From positions 124,001 to 188,000 of the forward strand of contig NZ_WQLV01000006.1 in assembly GCF_009753675.1 (NCBI RefSeq): DNA of 64,000 nucleotides. Direction: 5' to 3'. The position numbers and the translations under genes were made by a program. The notes below the pieces were generated by a model that worked only from the letters and a program-made list of their open reading frames with translations, was not told where the DNA came from and ran no database searches. The stretch comes from Parasedimentitalea huanghaiensis (lineage in GTDB: Bacteria; Pseudomonadota; Alphaproteobacteria; Rhodobacterales; Rhodobacteraceae). Within the stretch, counting starts at the first letter, position 1. Each line of letters opens with the position of its first letter. Shown piece after piece: positions 38,416 through 52,710 of this stretch.

Positions 38416-38812
38416 ACACACTATGTGTTTTGAAAGAAACCCCAACTCATGTCAACTCAGTAGGCACCTGCCAAACCTAATAGAAATAAACCACTGAAAA
38501 CACTACACTTACACTCAATGTAAGACGTAGGCGGTTGTTTCGCACTATTCAGTTGAACCACGCCGCTATGCAGCTGCATTAGTACCCTATGGAGCGCCAT
38601 GCTAGCCTGACCCCATGCAGAGAAGCCAGGTCGTATTTTGTAACACCGCGCGAATTGAGCTCGAAAACACTTGAATATCAGCCCAAAACTGTTTCCCAAA
38701 AGGCGCTAAATTACCATCACGCAAAGACCGAATATCCACTTACAATGGCCCCATTGTACTGTGAGGCTTGATTGCGCTAACCTCCTATAAACAACAACAT
38801 GAGGCAGCCAAC
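38416..38812. other. 397-bp interval without a recognised gene
   Basis: Between tRNA-Arg and the LacI-type regulator. Short frames on both strands (e.g. 38457-38699, 38589-38771) lack ribosome sites and family features. It presumably holds the promoter of the regulator; I see no clear operator or terminator. Confidence 0.55.
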
Positions 38813-39838
38813 GTGACATCGGACAACAAACGCCCCCTGACCCTCCGCGATGTATCCGAAGCCACAGGGGTTTCCGAGATGACCGTCAGCCGTGTGCTGC
38901 GCAATCGTGGCGACGTATCGGAAAAAACACGCGTCAAGGTGCTCGCCGCCGCCAAAGAATTGGGATATGTGCCGAACAAAATTGCTGGCGCTTTGGCCTC
39001 TAACCGGGTCAATCTGGTGGCCGTGATTATTCCATCGCTGTCCAACATGGTGTTCCCGGAAGTCCTAACCGGTATCAATGAAGTTCTTGAAACCACCCAG
39101 TTGCAGCCAGTTGTCGGCGTTACCGATTATCAACCAGAAAAAGAAGAAAAAGTACTCTACGAGATGCTTTCATGGCGGCCTTCGGGCGTGATAATCGCTG
39201 GACTAGAGCACACCGATTCTGCGCGCGCGATGCTGAACGCTGCAGGCATCCCAGTGGTTGAAATCATGGATACCGACGGCAAGCCAGTGGATGCGATGGT
39301 GGGAATTTCACACCGCCGTGCAGGCCGTGAAATGGCCAAAGCCATTCTCAAGGCTGGCTATCGCCATATCGGGTTTATGGGCACAAAAATGCCACTGGAC
39401 CATCGCGCCCGTAAACGATTTGAAGGCTTTACGGAGGCCTTGGCCAAAGAAGGCGTCGAGATCGAGGACCGCAATTTTTACTCAGGTGGTTCAGCGCTGG
39501 CCAAGGGCCGCGAAATGACCGCCGAAATGCTGGAACGCTCCCCCGACTTGGATTTTCTCTATTACTCCAATGACATGATCGGTGCCGGTGGCTTGTTGTA
39601 TCTGCTGGAGCAAGGCATTGATATTCCAGGACAGATCGGTCTGGCCGGTTTCAACGACGTTGAACTTCTGCAAGGGCTACCTCGAAAATTGGCCACCATG
39701 GATGCCTGCCGACTTGAGATAGGGCGCAAAGCGGCCGAGATCATCGCCGCCCAACTAGACAATCCTGAGGAAGAAATCGAAACCCGGATTACGCTGAACC
39801 CTACCATCAGTTATGGCGACACGCTAAAGCGACGCTAA
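38813..39838 (+). CDS. LacI-family transcriptional regulator
   Basis: 341 aa from GTG 38813, which has GAGG about 9 nt upstream (a TTG at 38768 would extend it by 15 residues). The LacI helix-turn-helix is TLRDVSEATGVSEMTVSRVL (about 9-28), with a hinge helix at VPNKIAGALASNR. The periplasmic-binding-protein-like sensor spans 60-335 (LVAVIIPSLSNMVFPEVL, GFMGTKMPLDHRA, GLAGFNDVELLQG) and resembles gluconate-type GntR. It is translationally coupled (TAATG) to a YcaQ-family gene, not to sugar genes, so its target is unclear. Confidence 0.9.
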   Translation: MTSDNKRPLTLRDVSEATGVSEMTVSRVLRNRGDVSEKTRVKVLAAAKELGYVPNKIAGALASNRVNLVAVIIPSLSNMVFPEVLTGINEVLETTQLQPVVGVTDYQPEKEEKVLYEMLSWRPSGVIIAGLEHTDSARAMLNAAGIPVVEIMDTDGKPVDAMVGISHRRAGREMAKAILKAGYRHIGFMGTKMPLDHRARKRFEGFTEALAKEGVEIEDRNFYSGGSALAKGREMTAEMLERSPDLDFLYYSNDMIGAGGLLYLLEQGIDIPGQIGLAGFNDVELLQGLPRKLATMDACRLEIGRKAAEIIAAQLDNPEEEIETRITLNPTISYGDTLKRR

Positions 39839-41052
39839 TGGCCCTGCAACAACTCGACAATCGCGCAGCGCGACGGCTGTTTATGGACCGGCACGCGCTG
39901 ATCGAGTCTCCGACCGGTTCTGCCAAAGGCGCTGAACTACTGGAGCTGATTACCCGGCTTGGCTTTGTCCAGCTGGACAGCATCAATACCGTGGCTCGGG
40001 CCCATGATATGATCTTGTATTCCCGGCGCCCGTCATACCGCGCCCAAAACCTGAAACAGCTGTACGAAGGTGACCGGGCGCTGTTTGAACATTGGACCCA
40101 TGATGCGGCCGTCATCCCAATGCAATTCTACCCTCAGTGGCACCTACGATTCAAACGGGATGCCGCTCGTCTAAAATCGAGATACCGCAACTGGCACCGT
40201 GACAACTACGAGGCGCAGTTCGACACTGTGCTGCAACATATCCGCGATCACGGGGCAGTTGGGTCGTCCGACGTTGGCAAAGACGAGAAAAAGGGATCGG
40301 GTGGCTGGTGGGACTGGCACCCCTCAAAAACAGCACTGGAATACCTGTGGCGCTCCGGCGCGCTAACCGTAGTTGGCCGCAAGGGGTTCCAAAAACAATA
40401 TGACCTGACCGAACGGGTGATTGAAGAGCATCTATGCCCCGGTGTCTCGCCCTTTGACGAAGCCAAAACGCTCGATACCCTTTGCAGTGGAGCCTTAGAT
40501 CGGCTTGGCTTTGCCACGTCGCGTGAGATCGCCGCGTTTTGGGATACTGTCTCAACCACCGAAGCCCGGGACTGGTGCAAAACGCAGCTGGAACAGGGCA
40601 ACCTCGAAGAGGTCGACGTAGCCCATACCGATGGCAAGTTGCGTCGCGCCTTTGCCCGACCAGGAACAGTTGAGTCCGCTCAGGATATTGGACCAGCACC
40701 TGGCCGTATGCGGGTGCTCAGCCCCTTTGATCCCGCTCTGCGCGACCGAAAACGCGCCGAGCGGTTGTTTGGGTTTCACTACCGGATCGAAGTTTTTGTT
40801 CCCGCCCCCAAGCGCATCTACGGCTACTACGTTTTCCCCCTATTCGAGGGCGAGCGCATGGTGGGCCGGATCGACATGAAAGCACAGCGGGATGCTGACC
40901 TGTTGCAAGTTACAGCCGTCTGGCCGGAACGCAGTGTTATTTGGTCCCCCGGCCGTATACGTAAGCTGGAAAGCGAACTTCAGCGCGTTGCGCGGTTTGC
41001 AGGGCTGTCCGAAGTGGTGTTTGCCGATGGATGGCTACGAGAGCCTGTCTGA
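39838..41052 (+). CDS. YcaQ/AlkZ-type winged-helix DNA glycosylase
   Basis: 404 aa, HTH_42 superfamily. The E. coli YcaQ relative excises crosslinked and N7-alkylated bases. The family's catalytic QxD motif appears as Gln45-Leu-Asp47 (FVQLDSIN). Other family blocks are FEHWTHDAAVIP near 83-94 and LSPFDPALRDRKRAERLFGF near 299-318, followed by YYVFPLFEGERMVGRIDMKA split around 325-345. The ATG shares its A with the LacI-type stop codon (TAATG), so the two genes form a coupled pair. Confidence 0.88.
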   Translation: MALQQLDNRAARRLFMDRHALIESPTGSAKGAELLELITRLGFVQLDSINTVARAHDMILYSRRPSYRAQNLKQLYEGDRALFEHWTHDAAVIPMQFYPQWHLRFKRDAARLKSRYRNWHRDNYEAQFDTVLQHIRDHGAVGSSDVGKDEKKGSGGWWDWHPSKTALEYLWRSGALTVVGRKGFQKQYDLTERVIEEHLCPGVSPFDEAKTLDTLCSGALDRLGFATSREIAAFWDTVSTTEARDWCKTQLEQGNLEEVDVAHTDGKLRRAFARPGTVESAQDIGPAPGRMRVLSPFDPALRDRKRAERLFGFHYRIEVFVPAPKRIYGYYVFPLFEGERMVGRIDMKAQRDADLLQVTAVWPERSVIWSPGRIRKLESELQRVARFAGLSEVVFADGWLREPV

Positions 41053-41098: not shown

Positions 41099-42016
41099 CT
41101 AACCTAAAAAGCCTCGATCTCGGATTAGATCAACCAAACCCGCCAAGGTTTCTTCAACTCCCTGCCCCGAGGTATCCAGCTGCGCCAACGCCTTGCCGTA
41201 CAACGCCTCACGGCTGGTCAAGATGGATCGTAACTGCTCCATCGCTTCGGGATTGCCGGCCATTGGGCGTTCATCCCCCTGTGCACGGACCCGCGACATG
41301 TGTTCATCCGGGCTCGCCTTGATCCAAATGGTATGAAACCCGGTCAACAGGCTGTTGTAGGTCTCTGGTTCACCCACCACACCACCTGCTGCGGCCAGGA
41401 TCAAACTGTCATGTGTGGCGGTAATCCGTGAAATCGCTTGCGCCTCCAGCTTGCGATATCCCTCTTGTCCATACAGCGCCATGACCTCATCTACCGGCAT
41501 ACCGCTTTGAGCTTCAATTTCCGAGTTCAGCTCGACAAAGGGAAGTCCAAGTTCCTGCCCTGCCAGCGCACCAAGTGTAGATTTACCAGCGCCCCGCAAA
41601 CCCACCAGACAAATACGCCCCGCACGCAGGTTCGCCTCTGGTTCGGGCGCCAGCAAACTCATCACTTTCTGCTGAGTAGCTACACTGGAACTGCTAAACA
41701 AATCACCGACGCGCATTGCATCCGATGTCCACGGGTCCTCTTCACCCGTCAACCACTCAATACGATGATCCAGCGCAATTGCCACACGTTGTAACAACCC
41801 GATCGAGATATTACCCTCACCACCTTCAAGCTGAGCCAGATAGCGCGGCGACACACCGGATTGTTCGGACAGAACACGGCGGGAAATACCTTTGCGTTCA
41901 CGCGCTCGACGAACCCGCTCACCCACCCGCGCGATTAGGGCCGATACCGAAGTGTCGATTTGATCGCTATCCGACACCGAACTGGTCTCGCCGCGGAAAT
42001 TGGTGATTTCACTCAT
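41099..42016 (-). CDS. boxR: BoxR/BzdR-type regulator: XRE helix-turn-helix fused to shikimate kinase-like domain
   Basis: 305 aa. XRE-type helix-turn-helix at about 28-85 (RARERKGISRRVLSEQSGVS, YLAQLEGGEGNISIGLLQRV). From ~133 a shikimate-kinase-like domain carries Walker A GLRGAGKS (139-146), which in BzdR binds benzoyl-CoA as inducer. The open frame extends to 42076 but passes through a putative operator, so ATG 42016 is preferred. It sits at the end of the box gene run and would repress it in the absence of benzoyl-CoA. Confidence 0.92.
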   Translation of the reverse strand: MSEITNFRGETSSVSDSDQIDTSVSALIARVGERVRRARERKGISRRVLSEQSGVSPRYLAQLEGGEGNISIGLLQRVAIALDHRIEWLTGEEDPWTSDAMRVGDLFSSSSVATQQKVMSLLAPEPEANLRAGRICLVGLRGAGKSTLGALAGQELGLPFVELNSEIEAQSGMPVDEVMALYGQEGYRKLEAQAISRITATHDSLILAAAGGVVGEPETYNSLLTGFHTIWIKASPDEHMSRVRAQGDERPMAGNPEAMEQLRSILTSREALYGKALAQLDTSGQGVEETLAGLVDLIRDRGFLG

Positions 42017-42031
42017 AAGGTTGCCGAAATG

Positions 42032-42045
42032 TGTAACATATTGCA
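42032..42045. promoter_or_regulatory. Candidate BoxR operator, boxR-proximal
   Basis: TGTAACATATTGCA, a TGCA-N6-TGCA variant (one mismatch in the arms), 16 bp before the boxR start. Confidence 0.5.
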
Positions 42046-42104
42046 CGAATCTAAAGCGACTAAGCCGCACGTTCAAACAGAAACCCGTCTAACAGCAGAG
42101 AACC

Positions 42105-42127: not shown

Positions 42128-42574
42128 TTACTCAGGCCGGAGGAGTGGGGTCACAATATCGCGAATGTCAGGCGGTGCTGGCTTTGTTGTGAATGTTTCG
42201 GGCGCGATGAAAACGCAAACAAATTTGCCCTCAAAGCACAGCTTACCATCCTGCCGCGCATTGACCCGAAACGCGATGGAGCTGCCTCCCAGTTTGCAGG
42301 GCCAAACTTCACAGATCAGCCTATGACGCGGTGTCACCGGTGACCGAAAATCAATGCTCATGTGTACAAATGGTGTTCCGGTTCCACGGTCCAACTCCAT
42401 CTGAAACCAGCCGTCACCGCCTAGAACATGCTCCCACCAAGCGTCGATTGCTTCAAGCGCAAACCAAGGGAGACGACCGGTGTAGGCAATCTGCGCCGGG
42501 TCACAGTCGCCCCAGCCAACCCGAATTTGATGGATGAAATTAGCTGGTTCTGTTGATGCTTCCTGCGATGTCAT
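42128..42574 (-). CDS. 4-hydroxybenzoyl-CoA thioesterase-type acyl-CoA thioesterase
   Basis: 148-aa hot-dog fold thioesterase. VGWGDCDPAQIAYTGRLPWF near 19-38 carries the active-site Asp and the 4HBT pattern. It would hydrolyse benzoyl-CoA or a dead-end CoA ester to release trapped CoA, a role proposed for thioesterases in box clusters. Its ATG directly abuts the boxA stop codon, so it is translated from the same message. Confidence 0.88.
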   Translation of the reverse strand: MTSQEASTEPANFIHQIRVGWGDCDPAQIAYTGRLPWFALEAIDAWWEHVLGGDGWFQMELDRGTGTPFVHMSIDFRSPVTPRHRLICEVWPCKLGGSSIAFRVNARQDGKLCFEGKFVCVFIAPETFTTKPAPPDIRDIVTPLLRPE

Positions 42575-43768
42575 TCAGTAAGTTTCCACATGATATCTTC
42601 CGTCGTCACGCATGCTATCTCTCAACTCAGGCCAATTCAAATTGATACCACGGGCGATATCCCTTAAGGCCTCTTCGACCCCCTGTTCCATCGCCTTTAG
42701 TCCGCAAATGTAGATATGCCCATTCGGGTTCTGCAACAGCTTTGCCACCCGATCCGCTTCCTCGCGCAGACGGTCCTGCACATATTGTTTGGGCGCATCT
42801 TCTTGACGGGAAAATGCAAAATGCTTGGCCATAAAACTGTCTGGGATTTTCTTGAGCGGCCCAAAGTAGGGCAATTCCCCCGGTCGGCGAGCGCCGAACA
42901 CCAGTGTCATACTGTCCTTGTCCTGCGGCGAGACCCGCTGGCGGCGCATAGTGAAGCCGCGAAACGGAGCTGATCCGGTGCCGGTACAAATCATCAATAT
43001 GTCGGCCTGTGGATCGCTGGGCATTAGGAAAGTAGATCCAAACGGGCCAGTTAGCTGAACCTCATCCTCCGCCGCCAGGTCGCAAACGTAATTTGAACAC
43101 ACGCCCTGCGGTTCTCGTTTGACCGTCAGCGAAATGTTCAAATAGCCCGGCCGTTCACCGTCGCGAGGGCTTGAAACTGAGTACAGGCGCGGCAAGTGCG
43201 GCTGACCGTTGTCATCAGTACCCGGTGGAATGATCCCGATGCTTTGACCTTCGAGAACCGGAAATGGCAAGCCACCAAGATCAAGAATAATATGTCGGAC
43301 ATCGGCATCACTGGTTTCTTCAGTCAACCGATAATTGCCCTGAACTCGTGCGGTGGCCGGTTTGCCAAGGTTATACATATTAATCGAGGGCTTGGAGGCA
43401 CTGGCCGGGGCTTTGGCTTTTCCACCAGCACCCGCGTGCGCTTTGGCCAACAGCTCTGCCATAGCTTCGTCCAGGGCTTCCAAGCCACTTTCAGCTTCCC
43501 CACCTTCGGCAATATCTGCCTGTTCCGGCATTTCCTCCCAAGTGAATTGATCATCAACTGAGTATGGGCTTGTGACCACCCGCCATTCGTCGATCGAACC
43601 GGTTGGGCAAACCGGGATACAATCCATGCAAAAGTTACACTTGGACGCGTCAACAACCACATTGACATCATCATGCACGATCGCCTCTTCGGGGCATGTC
43701 ATCTCGCAGGTATAGCAGCGGATGCATATCTCGGGATCGATCAGGTGTTGCTTTACAGCTTGGGTCAT
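42575..43768 (-). CDS. boxA: Benzoyl-CoA 2,3-epoxidase reductase subunit BoxA
   Basis: 397 aa. Two [4Fe-4S] ferredoxin motifs open the protein (Cys15, 18, 21, 25 and Cys44, 47, 50, 54). A ~60-residue acidic/Ala-rich linker and a ferredoxin-NADP reductase-like module follow (LPRLYSVSS binding FAD near 198; MICTGTGSAPFRGF near 269-282 binding NADPH; terminal VETY). It passes electrons from NADPH to BoxB. The ATG overlaps the stop of a small Cys-rich gene upstream (ATGA). Confidence 0.96.
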   Translation of the reverse strand: MTQAVKQHLIDPEICIRCYTCEMTCPEEAIVHDDVNVVVDASKCNFCMDCIPVCPTGSIDEWRVVTSPYSVDDQFTWEEMPEQADIAEGGEAESGLEALDEAMAELLAKAHAGAGGKAKAPASASKPSINMYNLGKPATARVQGNYRLTEETSDADVRHIILDLGGLPFPVLEGQSIGIIPPGTDDNGQPHLPRLYSVSSPRDGERPGYLNISLTVKREPQGVCSNYVCDLAAEDEVQLTGPFGSTFLMPSDPQADILMICTGTGSAPFRGFTMRRQRVSPQDKDSMTLVFGARRPGELPYFGPLKKIPDSFMAKHFAFSRQEDAPKQYVQDRLREEADRVAKLLQNPNGHIYICGLKAMEQGVEEALRDIARGINLNWPELRDSMRDDGRYHVETY

Positions 43769-43941
43769 TGGGGCCTGTTGGATTTGCTCAGGATTAGGTC
43801 AGGTAGAATTAGTGCATCGATCAATGCCTGACACATACCAGTGCAGTTGGTACAGCCCACACATGGCCCTTTCAGGCCGACAATTTGGTCTGACAGGTTA
43901 TTGATATTAGGCGTCTCTGCTTTGGTGCGGCTGATTTTCAT
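43765..43941 (-). CDS. Small four-cysteine (ferredoxin-like motif) protein coupled to boxA
   Basis: 58 codons on the minus strand with an excellent ribosome site (GGAGGA, 7 nt before ATG) and a stop that overlaps the boxA start (ATGA). Residues 27-37 read CVGCTNCTGMC, a CxxCxxCxxxC spacing identical to one [4Fe-4S] half of a bacterial ferredoxin, but with Gln instead of the usual Pro after the last Cys and only one cluster motif in the protein. The N-terminus is polar (KISRTKAETPNINNLSDQ), the C-terminus Leu/Ile rich. It lies between boxB and boxA, so a role in electron transfer to, or assembly of, the epoxidase is inferred. I recall no named family. Confidence 0.8.
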   Translation of the reverse strand: MKISRTKAETPNINNLSDQIVGLKGPCVGCTNCTGMCQALIDALILPDLILSKSNRPQ

Positions 43942-44001
43942 TGCGAATCCTCCGTGAAGTGAAACAACCCGGCCCCAAAAATGGCGCCGGGTCTGTGGGC
44001 A

Positions 44002-45453
44002 TCAGGCCATGTGCAACTGCACGTATTCAAAATCGCCGGGTTTATTATCAATGCCTACTTTCGGCGGCGCAATCCAACTGGCGAATTTGCCCGGCTCCAT
44101 ACAGGGTTTCATCAAAGATTGGATGAAATCGCCATCTGCTTTGGTTGGAAGCCAATCCTTTGCTCGGGCATCCCATTCTTCTTTGGGAAGGATATCACCA
44201 TCAGGCGAGATGTTAACTGCTGCAAAGACACCAATCTTACGGTGAAAGCCTTCGTGCGGTATGGTCATCTCAAATTCGACCCCCAGTTTGGCAATCAATT
44301 TGTTCCAGCGCCCGACACCGCCAGCGGCATCTTTTACATAGTCATCGCGCAACCGCATATTGATCGCAGTCAGTGCTGGGACTTCCTCTGAGACGATACG
44401 ACCATCTTTGATCGAACGCACCATATAGCTGTCGTTGGTCAACTTGTGATCGTCCTTGATCCGCTGCTCCATGAAGCGGCCCTTGATGCCTGAGTTGAAA
44501 GCATTGGCTGCATTAGTCGATACTTCTTGGCCAAACAGGTCCAATGAAAGAGTGTAGTGCAGGTTTAGCTTTTTCTGGATCGTAGGCAGGTCGATGACAC
44601 CCAAATCACGGATCTTGTCGATGTCATATGGATCAGTAATCCCGGCCTTTTTCATTGCATCACAGGTGGCCTGAATAGTGCGCCCTACCCCGGTTTCACC
44701 CACAAACATGTGGTGGGCTTCTTCGGTCAGCATGAACCGGCAGGTGCGGCTGAGCGGATCAAAACCCGATTGCGCCAGGCTCTCTAACTGCATCTTGCCG
44801 TCGCGGTCGGTGAAATATGTGAACATAAAGAAGGACAGCCAATCCGGCGTTTCCTCGTTAAACGCACCCAGCATCCGTGGTGCTTCTTCGGAACCAGAAG
44901 ACCGGATCAGCATATCGTTGGCTTCTTCACGACCATCCCGGCCAAAATACTTTTGCAGCAGGTAGACCATCGCCCAGAGATGGCGACCCTCTTCGACGTT
45001 CACCTGAAACAAATTGCGCATATCATAGAGAGACGGTGCGGTCAGGCCCAGGAAACGTTGCTGCTCAACCGATCCCGGTTCGGTATCGCCCTGAATCACG
45101 ATCATCCGCTTCAGCATATTGCGATATTCGCCTGGGACCTCTTGCCAAGCGGGCTCGCCGTAATGCTCACCACACGGAATAGTACGGCCTTCGACCTGTG
45201 GAGCAAGCAGCACTCCCCAGCGATACTCTGGCATTTTCACGTAATCAAACTTGGCCCAGCCCTTGGGATCGACAGAAACCGCAGTGCGCAAATAGATCAT
45301 GCTTTGCTGGAACTGCTGCGGAATCAGGTCGTTCCACCAGTTAATGTACCCGGGATGCCATTTCTCAAGCGCCTTCAGCACCTTTTTGTCGCTGCTTAGG
45401 CCAACGTTATTTGGAATTTGAGTGTCATAGCTAACATTAATCAGGTCGAGCAT
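44002..45453 (-). CDS. boxB: Benzoyl-CoA 2,3-epoxidase oxygenase subunit BoxB
   Basis: 483-aa di-iron oxygenase forming 2,3-epoxybenzoyl-CoA from benzoyl-CoA and O2. The iron ligands are in two EExxH-type motifs: VNVEEGRHLW (Glu154/155, His158) and LTEEAHHMF (Glu244/245, His247/248). Start set at 45453, behind GGAGGA; the open frame extends to 45489 through an intercistronic hairpin. Followed by the small Cys-rich gene and boxA, preceded by boxC. Confidence 0.96.
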   Translation of the reverse strand: MLDLINVSYDTQIPNNVGLSSDKKVLKALEKWHPGYINWWNDLIPQQFQQSMIYLRTAVSVDPKGWAKFDYVKMPEYRWGVLLAPQVEGRTIPCGEHYGEPAWQEVPGEYRNMLKRMIVIQGDTEPGSVEQQRFLGLTAPSLYDMRNLFQVNVEEGRHLWAMVYLLQKYFGRDGREEANDMLIRSSGSEEAPRMLGAFNEETPDWLSFFMFTYFTDRDGKMQLESLAQSGFDPLSRTCRFMLTEEAHHMFVGETGVGRTIQATCDAMKKAGITDPYDIDKIRDLGVIDLPTIQKKLNLHYTLSLDLFGQEVSTNAANAFNSGIKGRFMEQRIKDDHKLTNDSYMVRSIKDGRIVSEEVPALTAINMRLRDDYVKDAAGGVGRWNKLIAKLGVEFEMTIPHEGFHRKIGVFAAVNISPDGDILPKEEWDARAKDWLPTKADGDFIQSLMKPCMEPGKFASWIAPPKVGIDNKPGDFEYVQLHMA

Positions 45454-45537: not shown

Positions 45538-47199
45538 TCAGACGCGTTCCATGTTGTATTCGCCGCGCTTGCCTGTTCCGTAGCGCTGCAAGGCACCCTC
45601 AGGTCCTACTGCGTTGGGACGCTGAAAGATCCAGTTCTGCCAGGCGGTGAGGCGACCGAAGATACGGGTTTCCATGGTTTCCGGACCTGCGAAGCGCAGG
45701 TTGGCCTCCATACCGGTCATCGCATCTGGGGAGAAACTGGCACGTTCTTCCATGAAGATCCGCACTTCGTCTTCCCAGTCGATGTCGTCAAAGGCATAGG
45801 TGATCAGACCACAGTCATCAGAGGCGTCAGCATCCAATGGCTCGCCCATTTGTTCTTTCAGCGCATCAACGTTTTCCGGATCACCCAGGAAACGGGTTTG
45901 CAGGCGGGTCAGACCATTCCCCATTGGATAGCAACCAAAGTTCGACTCACTCAGAGTTATGGTGGCCAGAGCCCGGTTGTCGCCTTCGAACTCTTCTAGC
46001 ATCATGTAGCTGCGATCGACTGACCACAGCAGTTCAGCCAACACTCCGGCAAAGCAAGACCCATGCTCGACCAGTGCCACCATTGAACGAGACGTCATGT
46101 CGACCCGCTTCAACACCCGCTTCCAATATTTCAGGATCTCGTTCGCCAGCCAGTGATCACTGTTGGACAACAACAGTTCTTCATGAGCCAGCAAAACTTC
46201 AGGGTGGCCCTGAGTGCGAAACACAACCAGCCCGATTTCACGTTCGTTCAATCGCAGATGCAGCAGGGCATCATCGAATTCGCGAGCCAGCCGCAACATG
46301 TAGGCTTCAGCCCCCTGCGCTTGCAAGGCAGCCATGTCAGCCGGAGCAACCTCGTCCGGCCCCTTTAGGGTGATATTGGCACGACCATTTTTACGATCGA
46401 TATCGACCTCTACCGTGGAATAGGTCACTGAACCATCGTCACCAAAGCTGCGATTCAGCGGTGTTAGTTCAATGCCTGTCAGACCCGATGGCTTAGAACT
46501 GGCCGCGGCAAGCTCTGCCGCGCGATCAGTCACCGCTGCGTCAAACTTGGAATTGGCAATCACTTCGTCGACCAGCTTCCAATCTACCGCGCGCTGGCCT
46601 TTGACACCTTCTTCAATCGAGCAGAACACATCCGCAAGATCACGGCGCACTTTGCGTTTATCCGTCACCCGTGTCAGCCCACCAGTGCCTGGCAACACCG
46701 CCAGCAACGGCACCTCGGGCAGAGCAACCGAGGAAGCGCTGTCGTTGGTCAGCATGATGTAATTGCAGGCCAGCGCGAGTTCGTAGCCACCTCCGGCGCA
46801 AGCACCTTTGATTGCTGCCATGTACATCTGCCCCGAATCCGCTTCGGCAGCTTCGAATGTGTTGCGGGTTTCATTGGTAAACTTACAGAAATTCACCTTG
46901 TGCGCATGGCTGGCACCGCCCAACATTCGAATGTTGGCCCCGGCGCAGAATACTTTTTCCTTAGCCGATTGCATCACCACCACTTTGACTTCTGGGTGCT
47001 CGAACCGCATCCGTTGCACCACATCGGCTAGCTCTATATCAACGCCCAGATCATAAGAGTTCAGCTTGAGCTGGTAGCCTTCAAACAACCCACCATCTTC
47101 ATCTACATCCATGAACAGGTTGGCGACTTCACCGTCATAGCTCACCCGCCAGTGGCGATAGTTTGACGGGTCAGTTTGAAAGTCAATTATCTGTGTCAT
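45538..47199 (-). CDS. boxC: 2,3-epoxybenzoyl-CoA dihydrolase BoxC
   Basis: 553 aa, crotonase superfamily with two enoyl-CoA hydratase-like halves. It opens and hydrolyses the ring of 2,3-epoxybenzoyl-CoA to 3,4-dehydroadipyl-CoA semialdehyde and formate. The oxyanion segments are KEKVFCAGANIRMLGG near 81-96 and IKGACAGGGYELALACNY split around 129-146. ATG 47199 is used (AAGGAA 8 nt upstream); a GTG one codon earlier is possible. First gene of the boxC-boxB-orf-boxA-thioesterase unit. Confidence 0.95.
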   Translation of the reverse strand: MTQIIDFQTDPSNYRHWRVSYDGEVANLFMDVDEDGGLFEGYQLKLNSYDLGVDIELADVVQRMRFEHPEVKVVVMQSAKEKVFCAGANIRMLGGASHAHKVNFCKFTNETRNTFEAAEADSGQMYMAAIKGACAGGGYELALACNYIMLTNDSASSVALPEVPLLAVLPGTGGLTRVTDKRKVRRDLADVFCSIEEGVKGQRAVDWKLVDEVIANSKFDAAVTDRAAELAAASSKPSGLTGIELTPLNRSFGDDGSVTYSTVEVDIDRKNGRANITLKGPDEVAPADMAALQAQGAEAYMLRLAREFDDALLHLRLNEREIGLVVFRTQGHPEVLLAHEELLLSNSDHWLANEILKYWKRVLKRVDMTSRSMVALVEHGSCFAGVLAELLWSVDRSYMMLEEFEGDNRALATITLSESNFGCYPMGNGLTRLQTRFLGDPENVDALKEQMGEPLDADASDDCGLITYAFDDIDWEDEVRIFMEERASFSPDAMTGMEANLRFAGPETMETRIFGRLTAWQNWIFQRPNAVGPEGALQRYGTGKRGEYNMERV

Positions 47200-47268
47200 C
47201 ACGCGCGTTCCTTATACCGGCCTTGAATGCAGCATATCGCACTTCAAAGATGTTCGTAAAGCATTTTG

Positions 47269-47366: not shown

Positions 47367-48920
47367 TCACAAGCCACCTCCTTCGTCCTTCTCACGGAGT
47401 TTGAACCTTTGGATTTTACCTGTGGCCGTTTTAGGCAAGTCTTCCGCGAACTCTACCCAACGGGGGTACTTCCACTTGCCGATCTTCTCTTTGACAAAGG
47501 CTTTCAGCTCGGCTGCCAACTCGGGACTGGCATCACCTTCCTTTAACACAATATGTGCTTTTGGTTTTTCCAAGCCTTCCCCATCGCGAACGGCAACGAC
47601 AGCTGCCTCCAACACCGATGGGTGCGAGACCAGAGCCTGTTCGACTTCAAATGGCGATAGCCAGATGCCCGAAACCTTGAACATATCATCCGTACGACCG
47701 CAGTAGATGTAGCGCCCTTGTGGGTCGCGCTCGTATTTGTCGCCGGTGCGGGTCCATTCCCCTTCAAAAGTTGCTCGACTTTTGTCTCGCTGGTTCCAGT
47801 ATCCCTCTGCCGCCGAGTCCCCACGCACCAACAACTCACCAATCTCGCCCTGCTCAACCTCATCTCCCGCCTCATCTGCCAGGCGCAACTGATATCCAGG
47901 CACTGCCACACCCGAGGTTCCATAGGTCACGTCTCCCGGTGCGTTAGAGAGAAAGATGTGCAGCATCTCAGTGGACCCAACGCCATCCAGAATATCAACG
48001 CCCCAGAGATCTCGCCATTTTCGCCCGACATCTTTGGGCAGCGCTTCACCAGCTGAAATACAGCACCTTAGCGACGCATCTGGTTTGGCTGCCAATTCGA
48101 GTTTCGCCAATGTAGCCGCATAGAGCGTTGGCACGCCGCAAAATATTGTTGGTTGCTCGTTTCTCAGGATATCCAACACAACATCAGGCGTTGGGCGATC
48201 ATGGAACAGGATCGTTGTCGCACCCACCGCCATTGGGAAGGTCATCGCATTGCCCATTCCGTAGGCAAAAAATAGTTTGGCGACTGAAAACACCACGTCA
48301 GTCTCACGAATTTGAAGCACTTGCGCGCCATATGTCTCAGCAGTGGCCCGCAGCGCCCCATGCACGTGCCGTACTCCTTTGGGCTGTCCAGTCGAACCCG
48401 AAGAGTAAAGCCAGAATGCTGTTTCATCCGCAGAGCAGGTTACCGCCTGCAGCGGATCTGCACCCGCCATGAATTCGGCCATGCTAATGGTGCCTTCGGG
48501 AGCTTCGCCACCGATGACCACAATCTGCTTCAATTCAGGTACGATCTGGACAGCGGCCTGTACCACGGGCCATAGCTCTACACTGACAAACAAAGCACTG
48601 GCGCGACTGTCACGCAAAATGGCTTCGTAGACCGAGGTTGCAAGCAGGGTATTAATGGGCACCGGTACCACACCAGATTTGAGTGCACCCCAAAAGATCT
48701 GTGGAAACTCGATCGTGTCCAACACCAGCATGGCTACGCGCTCTTCACGCGCAATACCTGCGCTACGCAATGCTCCGGCGATCAAGTCACTGTCTTTGGC
48801 TAATTGACCGTAACTTAAACTGCGTCGCTTGCCGGCAGCCTCACGAAAGGCAATTTTGTCTGAGCGTTCCTGACGGTGGCGGTCAACGAAGTAGCTGGCT
48901 GCATTTGAGCTGGCTGTCAT
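47367..48920 (-). CDS. bclA: Benzoate-CoA ligase
   Basis: 517-aa AMP-forming acyl-CoA synthetase. The P-loop is WLYSSGSTGQPKGVRH near 173-188; the later motifs are YGTSGVAVPGYQLRL, TGDKYERDPQGRY and PKTATGKIQRFKLR near the C-terminus, with the catalytic Lys in GKIQR. It makes benzoyl-CoA from benzoate, ATP and CoA, the entry step of the pathway. Start at ATG 48920 with GGGAGA upstream; the frame stays open to 49040 but this overlaps an operator. It has its own promoter with two candidate operators. Confidence 0.93.
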   Translation of the reverse strand: MTASSNAASYFVDRHRQERSDKIAFREAAGKRRSLSYGQLAKDSDLIAGALRSAGIAREERVAMLVLDTIEFPQIFWGALKSGVVPVPINTLLATSVYEAILRDSRASALFVSVELWPVVQAAVQIVPELKQIVVIGGEAPEGTISMAEFMAGADPLQAVTCSADETAFWLYSSGSTGQPKGVRHVHGALRATAETYGAQVLQIRETDVVFSVAKLFFAYGMGNAMTFPMAVGATTILFHDRPTPDVVLDILRNEQPTIFCGVPTLYAATLAKLELAAKPDASLRCCISAGEALPKDVGRKWRDLWGVDILDGVGSTEMLHIFLSNAPGDVTYGTSGVAVPGYQLRLADEAGDEVEQGEIGELLVRGDSAAEGYWNQRDKSRATFEGEWTRTGDKYERDPQGRYIYCGRTDDMFKVSGIWLSPFEVEQALVSHPSVLEAAVVAVRDGEGLEKPKAHIVLKEGDASPELAAELKAFVKEKIGKWKYPRWVEFAEDLPKTATGKIQRFKLREKDEGGGL

Positions 48921-49023
48921 TTGTAATTCTCCCTCTACGACGGCCGGATCGTGTCTCCGGCAATGTACCACCCTCCCCGATGATACGCATTCGAAGGGCC
49001 ATAATGCACCCGCTTCAGAGATA

Positions 49024-49037
49024 TGCAACATATTGCG
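49024..49037. promoter_or_regulatory. Candidate BoxR operator 1 of bclA
   Basis: TGCAACATATTGCG, one mismatch in the TGCA-N6-TGCA arms and the same ACATAT spacer as the boxR-proximal site. Confidence 0.55.
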
Positions 49038-49046
49038 CAATTTTCA

Positions 49047-49249: not shown

Positions 49250-50755
49250 TCAGTGCATCAACATGAGTGGCAGCAACGTAATGACTGGGAACAGCACCAG
49301 TATGACCACACGGATCAGGTCTGAGGCGACAAAGAACATCACCGCCTTGTAAGTGTCGATCATCTTGGTCTTACGGTCCATCGCGTTGATGATGAACAGG
49401 TTCATCCCAACTGGTGGAGTAATCAAGCCAACCTCAACCACGATCAGAACCAGAATACCAAACCAGATGGCAACGTATTCTGCCTCGATCCGGTTTGCCA
49501 TGCCTTCAGTCACCCGAATGCCCAACTCTTTCATTTGGTCGCGGGTCAGCTCCATACCGCCTGCAATAGCCTCTTGTATCGAGGCAAGCATCCCATCCGC
49601 CATGCCGTCGGGCACCCCGGCATTTAGCACTTCCATCGCTGCGCTCGCCTGCATGGCAGGAAGCGAGACCATGTTAAAGTCCATTGCCGAGATCACCGGA
49701 AAGAAGATTGGAATGGTCAGAAGAATCATACTGAGACTGTCCATTAAACAGCCAAACAGCAGATAGAAAACCAGGATCAGCGTCAGTACCATCCATGGGC
49801 TAAAGCCTTGACTGACAACAAAGTCAGCCAATTCTTGCGGCACCTTTGTTAGGGCCAGAAAGCCATTGTAAAAGCCCGCACCCAGCACGATGAAAAAGAT
49901 CATCGCAGTTGAGCGAGCCGTGACCATAAAGCTATCAGTCAAACTCTCACGATTCAGGCCACCATTCAGCCAGGCAATCAACCCGGTGCCAAAGGCCCCC
50001 ACTGCAGCACCTTCGGTCGGGGTAAACCAACCCAAGTAAATGCCTCCAACAACCAGACCAAACACCATCAACACTGGCCAAACCTTGAACAGCGCCGCAA
50101 AGCGTTCGCCCCAGGGAACTGCTGGTCGTGTGCCAGCAGATTCGGGAAACAGGCGAACATAAATAGAGATAACAATCACGTAGCCGAATGCCGCCAACAA
50201 GCCGGGAATAAAGGCCGCAAGAAACAGTTTAGCAATGTTTTGCTCGGTCAGAATGGCGTAGATCACCAGCACTACCGAGGGTGGGATCAAAATACCAAGA
50301 GTACCACCAGCCGCCAAGGTAGCCGCTGAAAATCCGCCTGCATAACCATATTGCTTTAACTCCGGCAGCGCCACGCGCCCCATAGTGGCCGCAGTGGCCA
50401 GCGAACTACCGCAGATCGCGCCAAAACCAGCACAAGCACCAATGGCTGCCATCGCGACACCACCTCTGCGGTGGCCAAGAAACCCCTCGGCTGCCTTAAA
50501 CAGGGCGCTGGACATACCGCCGAGTGTCGCAAAGTGTCCCATCAGCAAGAACATCGGCACGATGGTCAAGGAATAGGAGGAAAACGTCGAATAGGTCTCG
50601 TTTTTAAGGCGACCAAACGCCACGAGTGTACCGTCTGTGACGATCATCAGCCCACCCAGACCAACAAGAAACATCGACAGGCCAATGGGGACGCGCAGAA
50701 AGATCAGCACCATCAGGAGCGGGAAAGAGGCAATTCCGATTTCAAGAGCAGTCAC
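49250..50755 (-). CDS. TRAP transporter large permease (DctM type), benzoate island
   Basis: 501 aa, about twelve hydrophobic segments. DctM landmarks: VPMFLLMGHFATLGGMS near 66-82, GGTLGILIPPSVVLVIY near 152-168, LITPPVGMNLFIINA near 449-463. A ~60-residue hydrophilic loop (GVPDGMADGMLASIQEA...) is inserted before the last segments, which distinguishes it from the hydroxyproline DctM. GTG start overlaps the DctQ stop by 4 nt (GTGA). Confidence 0.93.
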   Translation of the reverse strand: MTALEIGIASFPLLMVLIFLRVPIGLSMFLVGLGGLMIVTDGTLVAFGRLKNETYSTFSSYSLTIVPMFLLMGHFATLGGMSSALFKAAEGFLGHRRGGVAMAAIGACAGFGAICGSSLATAATMGRVALPELKQYGYAGGFSAATLAAGGTLGILIPPSVVLVIYAILTEQNIAKLFLAAFIPGLLAAFGYVIVISIYVRLFPESAGTRPAVPWGERFAALFKVWPVLMVFGLVVGGIYLGWFTPTEGAAVGAFGTGLIAWLNGGLNRESLTDSFMVTARSTAMIFFIVLGAGFYNGFLALTKVPQELADFVVSQGFSPWMVLTLILVFYLLFGCLMDSLSMILLTIPIFFPVISAMDFNMVSLPAMQASAAMEVLNAGVPDGMADGMLASIQEAIAGGMELTRDQMKELGIRVTEGMANRIEAEYVAIWFGILVLIVVEVGLITPPVGMNLFIINAMDRKTKMIDTYKAVMFFVASDLIRVVILVLFPVITLLPLMLMH

Positions 50756-51336
50756 TGTTCAGTCTCCACGCCGTCCCAGATCAGGATGCGGCCGGTAAGA
50801 AATTCGAAGGTGCGAATTGCACCCATGTATAGGCCAACTATGGCAGCAACCACTGCGGCAACCAGACTGGCGGCATAGGCCCACCAGACAGGGAATTCGA
50901 GTAGGAACGAAGTTTCACCATTGTTCAGTTTGCTAATCATCCCAGCCTCAAGTCGCCACGCGATGAGAACCAAAACTCCAGCAAAAACAATTTCGGTCAC
51001 CATGCGCAAAAATCTATTTACACGAGCCGAAAAACTATTCGCCAGAATATCAACCGATGCGTGCCCTGAGGTGATTTGACAAAGCGGTAAGAAAGCGAAG
51101 ATAGCAAAGGCTACACCTGCTTCAACCAGTTCAAAATCTCCATTGATGGGACCAACACCAATCGCGATCATCCACTCAGCCAATTCAGGCGCCATGCCCT
51201 GCATGAGGTTGCCGTGAAAAAATCCGTTTAGCAGGCGACCGGTTATTGAAAGACAGGTCAGAAAAATCAGCAGCGTGAGAACTAACCCACCGGTAGCAGC
51301 CATGAACCTGGCCAGCTTTAGCATGAACTTGTGCAT
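50752..51336 (-). CDS. TRAP transporter small permease (DctQ type), benzoate island
   Basis: 194 aa with four hydrophobic segments (about 12-36, 60-80, 96-118, 140-165) and the GHASVDIL motif near 84. AAAGGAA lies ahead of ATG 51336; an upstream in-frame start at 51360 is less likely. Middle gene of the dctP-dctQ-dctM order. Confidence 0.88.
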   Translation of the reverse strand: MHKFMLKLARFMAATGGLVLTLLIFLTCLSITGRLLNGFFHGNLMQGMAPELAEWMIAIGVGPINGDFELVEAGVAFAIFAFLPLCQITSGHASVDILANSFSARVNRFLRMVTEIVFAGVLVLIAWRLEAGMISKLNNGETSFLLEFPVWWAYAASLVAAVVAAIVGLYMGAIRTFEFLTGRILIWDGVETEQ

Positions 51337-51411
51337 AGTTACGCATTCCTTTCGCGTCACAAGTAAGGCCGCGGCGAAGTCATCGCCGCGGCCCTTTGAT
51401 GAGTACCAGAC

Positions 51412-52446
51412 TTACTTCGAGTACTTCTCGATCAGCATAGTTGCTTCGTCGATCAACGCCTGACCGTCGATACCTTTTTCAGTCATGTCAGCCAGCCATT
51501 TATCATAGATAGGCTGAGCCCGCACACGCCATTCGGCAGTTTGCTCTGCATCCAGGGTGATGACATTGTTGCCCATGTCCAGTGCCATTTCACGCGAAGG
51601 ACCATCGGAATCGGCCTGCGTACCACCGGCAAACACTGAGAATTCCAAGCCCGAGTTGTCATCAATGATCTGCTGCAGGTCAGCAGGTAGACTATCAAAT
51701 TTGGGCTTGTTCATCGCCAGAACGAAAGTCAGCGTGTAAAGCGCCTTACCAGTGAATTCGGTGTGGTTTGTGACCAGTTCTGGAACTTTCAGCGCTGCAG
51801 TGACTTCCCATGGGATAGTTGTACCGTCGATCACACCTTTGGACAGACCTTCAGGTACCGCTGGAACTGGCATACCAACTGGAGTTGCGCCAAGTTCGGT
51901 CAGTAGTGAGTTGACCGAGCGCGAACCACCGCGGATTTTCATGCCACGCAGATCATCAGGTGTTTCCACTGGATCTGAAGTGTGGATCATACCAGGACCG
52001 TGAACCCAAGTGCCGAGGATTTTAAGATCCTTGAACTCGGTGTCCTTCATGTGGGTTTCGAACATTTCCCAATAGGCGCGTGACACAGCACGGGCGTCGG
52101 TCATCATAAATGGAAGTTCGAACACTTCTGTCGACGGATAGCGGCCTGGGGTGTAGCCAACCACAGTCCAAACAATGTCGGCAACGCCATCAATGGCCTG
52201 ATCCATCAGCTCTGGCGGCTTACCACCCAGCTGCATGGATGGATAACGGTCGATCTTGATGCGGCCTTCGGACGCTTCTTCGATCTTATCCGCCCAGACA
52301 TCCAGGATCAGTTTTGGCACATTGGCCTGTGCAGGCAGAAACTGGTGCAGTTTCAAAGTAACTTCCTGCGCCATTGCTGATGATGCGCCCATCGCCATGA
52401 TGGCTGCAGCACCAAAGGCGCCGAGTAGCTTTCTCCGAGTGGTCAT
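51412..52446 (-). CDS. TRAP transporter substrate-binding protein (DctP type), benzoate island
   Basis: 344 aa from ATG 52446 (GGGAGGA upstream). The signal begins TTRRKLLGAFGAA, so export could be by Tat (twin Arg) or Sec; cleavage after AMA/Q near 26. The DctP body has the GMKIRGGSRSVNSLL segment with the carboxylate-binding Arg near 166. Two operators shared with boxC and bclA make benzoate or a related aromatic acid the likely ligand. The frame to 52506 overlaps both operators. Confidence 0.9.
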   Translation of the reverse strand: MTTRRKLLGAFGAAAIMAMGASSAMAQEVTLKLHQFLPAQANVPKLILDVWADKIEEASEGRIKIDRYPSMQLGGKPPELMDQAIDGVADIVWTVVGYTPGRYPSTEVFELPFMMTDARAVSRAYWEMFETHMKDTEFKDLKILGTWVHGPGMIHTSDPVETPDDLRGMKIRGGSRSVNSLLTELGATPVGMPVPAVPEGLSKGVIDGTTIPWEVTAALKVPELVTNHTEFTGKALYTLTFVLAMNKPKFDSLPADLQQIIDDNSGLEFSVFAGGTQADSDGPSREMALDMGNNVITLDAEQTAEWRVRAQPIYDKWLADMTEKGIDGQALIDEATMLIEKYSK

Positions 52447-52472
52447 GTGATTCCTCCCTAGGACCGTTGTCA

Positions 52473-52486
52473 CGCAATATAATGCC
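52473..52486. promoter_or_regulatory. Candidate BoxR operator 1 of the TRAP operon
   Basis: CGCAATATAATGCC, sharing the ATAATGC half with the boxC and bclA sites; 27 bp upstream of the start, where it could block transcription. Confidence 0.5.
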
Positions 52487-52501
52487 TTCATTTTTGAAGT
52501 T

Positions 52502-52515
52502 TGCAATATAATGCC
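52502..52515. promoter_or_regulatory. Candidate BoxR operator 2 of the TRAP operon
   Basis: TGCAATATAATGCC; with operator 1 it forms a direct repeat of GCAATATAATGCC with 29-bp period. Confidence 0.55.
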
Positions 52516-52710
52516 AAATTATTCTCGTTTCTTTCTCCCAAAGGCCGCGTGCCCTGCTCTACAGAGCTGCCGCCACCTATGTCTGGTTCATAAAACAAAC
52601 CGGTTACACACCTGCTATTAGGCGCATTTGTAACTATCAACCATGAACATGCATTTTCCAATCAACAAAGTTTCCGGAAACTTTGCCGCAAGCAAACAAT
52701 ATTTCAAGCT

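Follow-up and report, generated by a model that had tools for sequence, protein, structure and literature searches.

Small, a conserved CxxCxxCxxxC protein encoded beside boxB in Rhodobacteraceae, and its possible place in electron delivery to BoxB

Enzymes of the plant-type FNR class usually have ferredoxins or flavodoxins as partners, and flavodoxins are themselves electron carriers. For the aerobic benzoyl-CoA (box) pathway, the available part of PMC4498308 names BoxA as the reductase feeding BoxB and reports the contact between the two proteins as transient; the C-terminal part of BoxA is a plant-type FNR according to the available part of PMC3200346, and FNR chains are also matched in the PDB. 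The phenylacetyl-CoA epoxidase, a related diiron enzyme, has in its operon the gene for the small accessory protein PaaD (DUF59/SufT-like), needed in vivo and not in vitro (PMC4498308, same part). This article describes a 58-codon gene, here called Small, located between boxB and boxA in Parasedimentitalea huanghaiensis; the window is the whole stretch of 64,000 nucleotides that was analysed. No description of Small was found in the open-licence literature, including the available parts of PMC9873259, PMC5064897, PMC10803450, PMC3200346, PMC4498308 and PMC7284936, a body of text that mostly leaves subscription papers outside and is weak evidence of absence.

Small resembles the 2[4Fe-4S] ferredoxins and PsaC in the CxxCxxCxxxC spacing by which bacterial 2[4Fe-4S] ferredoxins are recognized, in the Gly that precedes the second Cys in most members, and in a profile that aligns to both PsaC 4Fe-4S motifs (best chain E 3.9e-5 over the whole sequence; 0.08 and 0.24 for the separate stretches). 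It differs from them in carrying one motif per chain instead of two, in the window protein and in every copy inspected, in usually lacking Pro after the fourth Cys and in having its own conserved segments at the N-terminus and the C-terminus. The window protein is below every Pfam and NCBIfam cut-off, its Fer4_18 score being 13.9 bits against a cut-off of 27, and Fer4 models gave some weak matches among 51 Small members (best E-value 0.0019). By its sequence, the motif of Small is of the ferredoxin-type 4Fe-4S class ('half-ferredoxin'); the ferredoxin spacing that the first-pass annotation read into Cys27, Cys30, Cys33 and Cys37 is borne out by the PsaC profile match. The same annotation pointed to Gln in place of Pro: residue 38 of the window protein is indeed Gln, but this is not a family trait, as the position is variable and holds Pro in G109 and G267. 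An AlphaFold model computed from alignment A2 contains two helices, residues 11-21 and 36-54, on either side of the cysteine loop and no strands (pLDDT 65, pTM 0.35), and Foldseek with this weak model returned nothing at E<=0.001 and two matches with E about 7.

The N-terminal ferredoxin domain of BoxA (TIGR03224) is encoded by the adjacent gene, and hhalign places Small on its first motif. However, the window BoxA has two 4Fe-4S motifs and eight cysteines, and the hhalign probability is 3.8%, so that no duplication between Small and the BoxA domain can be demonstrated. As a separate observation, the second cysteine of the second BoxA motif (residue 47 of the BoxA encoded in the window) is Glu in G142, G216 and G116 (L171, L186, L190), all of them without Small. 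Compared with PaaD, Small has about the same setting, as a small protein in the operon of a diiron epoxidase, but it is one third of the size, has no match to DUF59 or another assembly family among the matches listed, and is missing from 20 of 62 boxB genomes, whereas PaaD is required in vivo (PMC4498308, available part).

The gene order in the window is benzoate-CoA ligase, boxC, boxB, Small, boxA, thioesterase, boxR (Table 1); the true start of the ligase probably lies further inside its ORF. Small runs from 43941 down to 43765, with 58 codons plus a TGA stop, and encodes MKISRTKAETPNINNLSDQIVGLKGPCVGCTNCTGMCQALIDALILPDLILSKSNRPQ. The first-pass annotation, which gave no strand, had placed a gene of this length with a GGAGGA site between boxB and boxA, sharing an ATGA junction with the latter, and both statements hold. 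The signals recur in other genomes: SD-like 4-mers precede 47 of 51 copies compared with 70 of 510 control windows, and in 35 of the 42 copies measured boxA starts within -10 to +20 of the stop codon of Small, 34 of them having it exactly at -4. The cluster is flanked, at window 38768-41052 and 49250-52518, by putative TRAP-type transporter genes on its upstream side and, on its downstream side, by putative YcaQ-like and LacI-like genes in convergent orientation, an order kept in several genera, even after loss of box. A second unnamed box-linked gene, DUF309-like, was detected by tblastn in 49 of 76 loci (L130-L205), mostly in box clusters and usually with the ligase gene on one side and boxC on the other (for example L172:4700-5170 and L196:8932-9393); two of three tested pass the DUF309 Pfam cut-off and the third is just under it, and tblastn did not find the gene in the window.

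Table 1. Positions of the features discussed, given for the window unless a locus is named.
Feature	Position	Strand	Basis
Small (58-codon gene, CxxCxxCxxxC protein)	43765..43941	minus	ORF; homologues elsewhere
Cys27-x2-Cys30-x2-Cys33-x3-Cys37 codons, ferredoxin-type half motif	43831..43863	minus	invariant in alignments A1 and A2; profile match to PsaC
GGAGGA ribosome-binding site	43948..43953	minus	six bases ahead of Small ATG
ATGA, Small stop overlapping boxA start	43765..43768	minus	sequence; same -4 overlap in 34/42 copies measured
boxA, NADPH reductase, two 4Fe-4S motifs and plant-type FNR domain	42575..43768	minus	TIGR03224, 535 bits; FNR chains in PDB
boxB, diiron benzoyl-CoA 2,3-epoxidase	44002..45450	minus	TIGR03225, 901 bits
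boxC ORF, 2,3-epoxybenzoyl-CoA dihydrolase	45538..47202	minus	TIGR03222, 956 bits
Benzoate-CoA ligase ORF	47367..49040	minus	TIGR02262, 747 bits, match from residue 45
4HBT-type thioesterase, between boxA and boxR	42128..42574	minus	PF13279
boxR-type regulator ORF, HTH and shikimate-kinase-like domain	41099..42076	minus	NF006015, 375 bits
Flavodoxin gene between boxB and thioesterase (G186)	L178:10752-11207
Flavodoxin gene between boxB and thioesterase (G287)	L181:10485-10943
Flavodoxin gene between boxB and thioesterase (G103)	L182:8729-9178		tblastn only

Small is a real conserved gene and not a chance ORF. Its four cysteines are invariant in alignments A1 (14 rows) and A2 (23 rows), and all four are present in 22 of 22 loci confirmed by a pattern placed outside the cysteines, an outcome that upholds the annotation on the point by which it had proposed to be judged, their conservation between boxB and boxA in other genomes. 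Closely related box carriers were compared in five pairs, four from the genus of the window; the dN/dS of Small is 0.024, 0.054, 0.115, 0.221 and 0.241, and more distant pairs of this genus reach up to 0.264. As a check for relaxed selection in box-less copies, dN/dS was compared between genera, where dS is near saturation; the medians are alike for 698 box/box pairs (0.594) and 14 box-less pairs (0.58). Of 758 tests for co-variation between Small and BoxA, the top one concerns Phe46, located next to the second cluster; its p of 1.5e-4 is non-significant after correction, with phylogeny not removed.

In a set of 101 genomes, made up of 100 relatives and the genome of the window itself, a Small homologue (E<=0.01) was found in 16 and boxB in 23, and all 16 carriers are boxB-positive; the strict dependence on box suggested by these numbers was overturned by a sample of 295 Rhodobacteraceae genomes. 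There, boxB occurs in 62 genomes, Small in 49 (E<=0.01) and both in 40 (Fisher p 6.6e-25, for one genome per genus and with genera that are not mutually independent), so that boxB is present in 40/49 carriers versus 22/246 non-carriers. In the boxB genomes Small adjoins boxB, and closer inspection added two diverged copies (G178 and G024), which raises the share of boxB genomes with a copy from 40/62 by profile to 42/62. Two frame-broken copies were noted, L155 (G016), the one such case among these 42 and inside a box cluster, and L192 (G190), in a genome without boxB. Nine genomes have Small without boxB, six clearly (G153, G190, G240, G264, G286, G313) and three marginally (G013, G143, G217; E 0.003-0.009). 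The association of Small with box is strong and partial, neither universal nor exclusive: Small is a box-cluster gene across genera, but 20/62 boxB genomes lack it and six boxB-less genomes carry it.

A scan of 84,980 species with the pattern LI[DE]A[LM][TIM][LV]PD gave the 22 confirmed loci, titled Rhodobacteraceae, Rhodobacterales, genera of the Rhodobacteraceae or, once, only Alphaproteobacteria. In 385 class-wide genomes, at least five of them Rhodobacteraceae, the genome of the window was the single strong match, and three further matches were marginal (E between 4.7e-4 and 8.7e-4). Neither search found a clear member outside the family. The viral contigs searched held no relative of Small and the plasmids searched by tblastn gave no match, while boxB is present on 11 plasmid records (Mycetohabitans, Nonomuraea, Embleya). 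Small looks like a Rhodobacteraceae trait rather than a general feature of box.

Of the 20 genomes that have boxB and lack Small, 15 have boxA beginning 17-119 bases past boxB, measured between tblastn matches, and in another (G156) a 211-base gap holds no recognisable copy; since boxA directly follows boxB in these 16, Small is dispensable, and its absence from 20/62 means that a box cluster can exist without it. One contig (G149) ends after boxB. The remaining three genomes (G103, G186, G287) have boxB followed by a flavodoxin gene in the position of Small and boxA, and neither Small nor BoxA (E<=1e-40) was found anywhere in them. These flavodoxins belong to a family unrelated to Small; those of G186 and G287 match PF00258 and, used as queries, found besides each other only the G103 counterpart among the loci tested. 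In the three clusters the electron donor of BoxB has apparently been exchanged. BoxA is encoded at the boxB locus in all other boxB genomes except G267 and G149, and except G127 and G260, which have it on another contig. A boxB tree was built from 70 rows, of which 61 come from the family sample and seven from the genus of the window, the others being G061 and G100; the own genome was left out, and G016 and G024 were taken as carriers. The presence of Small needs 12 changes on the best tree, and well-supported branches force only three.

Small also occurs away from boxA. In the split clusters of G127 and G260 it remains beside boxB while boxA accompanies the ligase gene on another contig, and in G267 (75% complete), where boxA was not found, the order is TRAP, DUF309, boxB, Small, boxR. 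Without box genes, Small lies between TRAP genes and YcaQ (G153, G240, L052), after a ligase and a DUF309-like gene (L057), ahead of a thioesterase (L062), beside YcaQ (G286), after TRAP and DUF309 (G313), or elsewhere (G264). BoxA (E<=1e-40) was not found in the six clear boxB-less genomes, five of which have Small intact (all except G190), and boxA, boxB and boxC were not found in the locus stretches L052, L057 and L062. Six box-less loci fall in three places of a YcaQ+LacI tree (29 rows). Dependence of Small on the TRAP transporter or on YcaQ was considered and rejected: the box-less copies have differing neighbours among the matches listed, and the YcaQ loci of boxB-less genomes are often without Small. 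In 20 control YcaQ loci (the first 20 listed without boxB and Small, several cut by contig ends), the thioesterase gene is kept without box genes in two and TRAP genes in three, so that survival as a single gene is not special to Small; one control (G166) retains boxA and boxR at a contig end, so that its status as box-less is doubtful. Since searches with Small itself led to the box-less Small loci, these cannot gauge how often it is retained.

Position, co-occurrence, the flavodoxin exchange and the motif, and no longer position alone, suggest a role for Small as shuttle, cluster donor or assembly factor. The data establish the gene, its conservation, its position, its overlap with boxA and the class of its motif; its co-expression, cluster binding, electron transfer and partner we infer. 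The reading tentatively preferred here, at somewhat less than even confidence, is that Small may be a single-motif Fe-S carrier in the electron path from BoxA to BoxB. It would be a [4Fe-4S] 'half-ferredoxin' made together with BoxA and BoxB, most likely optional, and would carry electrons from BoxA (NADPH, FAD, two 4Fe-4S motifs) to the diiron BoxB or serve the two as a docking adaptor. The PsaC match and the weak Fer4 scores of some members, the enrichment of boxB among carriers, the adjacency to boxB even in split clusters, and the FNR domain of BoxA, of a class partnered by ferredoxins or flavodoxins, are consistent with this. Small would improve the contact between BoxA and BoxB, reported as transient (PMC4498308, available part). 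A place in electron delivery is favoured because the flavodoxin clusters lack both BoxA and Small, BoxA has an FNR-type domain and the contact is transient (PMC3200346 and PMC4498308, available parts). Against the carrier stand the 16 clusters with boxA and without Small, the two 4Fe-4S motifs that BoxA already has, the weak hhalign result, the scores below all Pfam and NCBIfam cut-offs, the poor model without a fold match at E<=0.001, and the low number of flavodoxin clusters (n=3).

The patchy, dispensable occurrence of Small and its retention near boxB where boxA is elsewhere also fit a maturation or repair factor, which by analogy with PaaD might supply BoxA, or the diiron site of BoxB, with iron or an Fe-S cluster. 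This is a possible, if doubtful, explanation: the precedent of a small protein needed in vivo and not in vitro speaks for it (PMC4498308, available part), while the lack of an assembly-family match among those listed speaks against it, as does absence from the three flavodoxin-type clusters, few as they are, in which a diiron BoxB is needed all the same. What counts most against both the carrier and the maturation factor is that Small is retained without box, in genomes where BoxA was likewise not found. Such copies would be expected of an iron- or redox-responsive protein acting beyond Box, for example on the nearby transporter or regulators, and present in the box operon by linkage, an idea that we regard as unlikely. 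The intact box-less copies, their three places in the tree and the dN/dS of 0.17 (bootstrap 0.07-0.39) for L057/L062 agree with it; however, only 9/233 boxB-less genomes match, three of them marginally, other genes of the locus also survive alone, no single neighbour is common to all box-less copies among the matches listed, and the value for G240/L052, 0.60 (0.30-1.16), is compatible with relaxed constraint.

A single-motif ancestor has been proposed for ferredoxins, and Small might be its counterpart, a half-ferredoxin whose homodimer would rebuild a two-cluster ferredoxin, with Cys37 perhaps ligating the cluster of the partner, and which an aromatic epoxidase would have recruited as its mobile carrier; this elaboration is quite unlikely. 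Very improbable is a zinc-binding structural or docking peptide without redox chemistry, to which the four cysteines and the two helices that the weak model places around the loop would be suited, as the spacing, the C-[VI]-G-C start and the PsaC match are ferredoxin-like and matches to zinc-binding families such as Anti-TRAP are isolated (1/51 members, E 0.04). That the ORF is a translated leader coupling boxA translation, its peptide being irrelevant, would fit the frequent ATGA-type overlap and is barely credible, already contradicted by conservation, namely the dN/dS of 0.02-0.24 in five close pairs and the invariant cysteines, and by copies kept away from boxA in G127, G260 and box-less genomes.

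Small is a conserved gene family for which Pfam and NCBIfam have no model, and a short candidate for learning how much cluster binding one ferredoxin motif supports. With a conserved extra Fe-S-type protein, and with clusters that have a flavodoxin in the place of BoxA, electron delivery to BoxB would be modular in Rhodobacteraceae.
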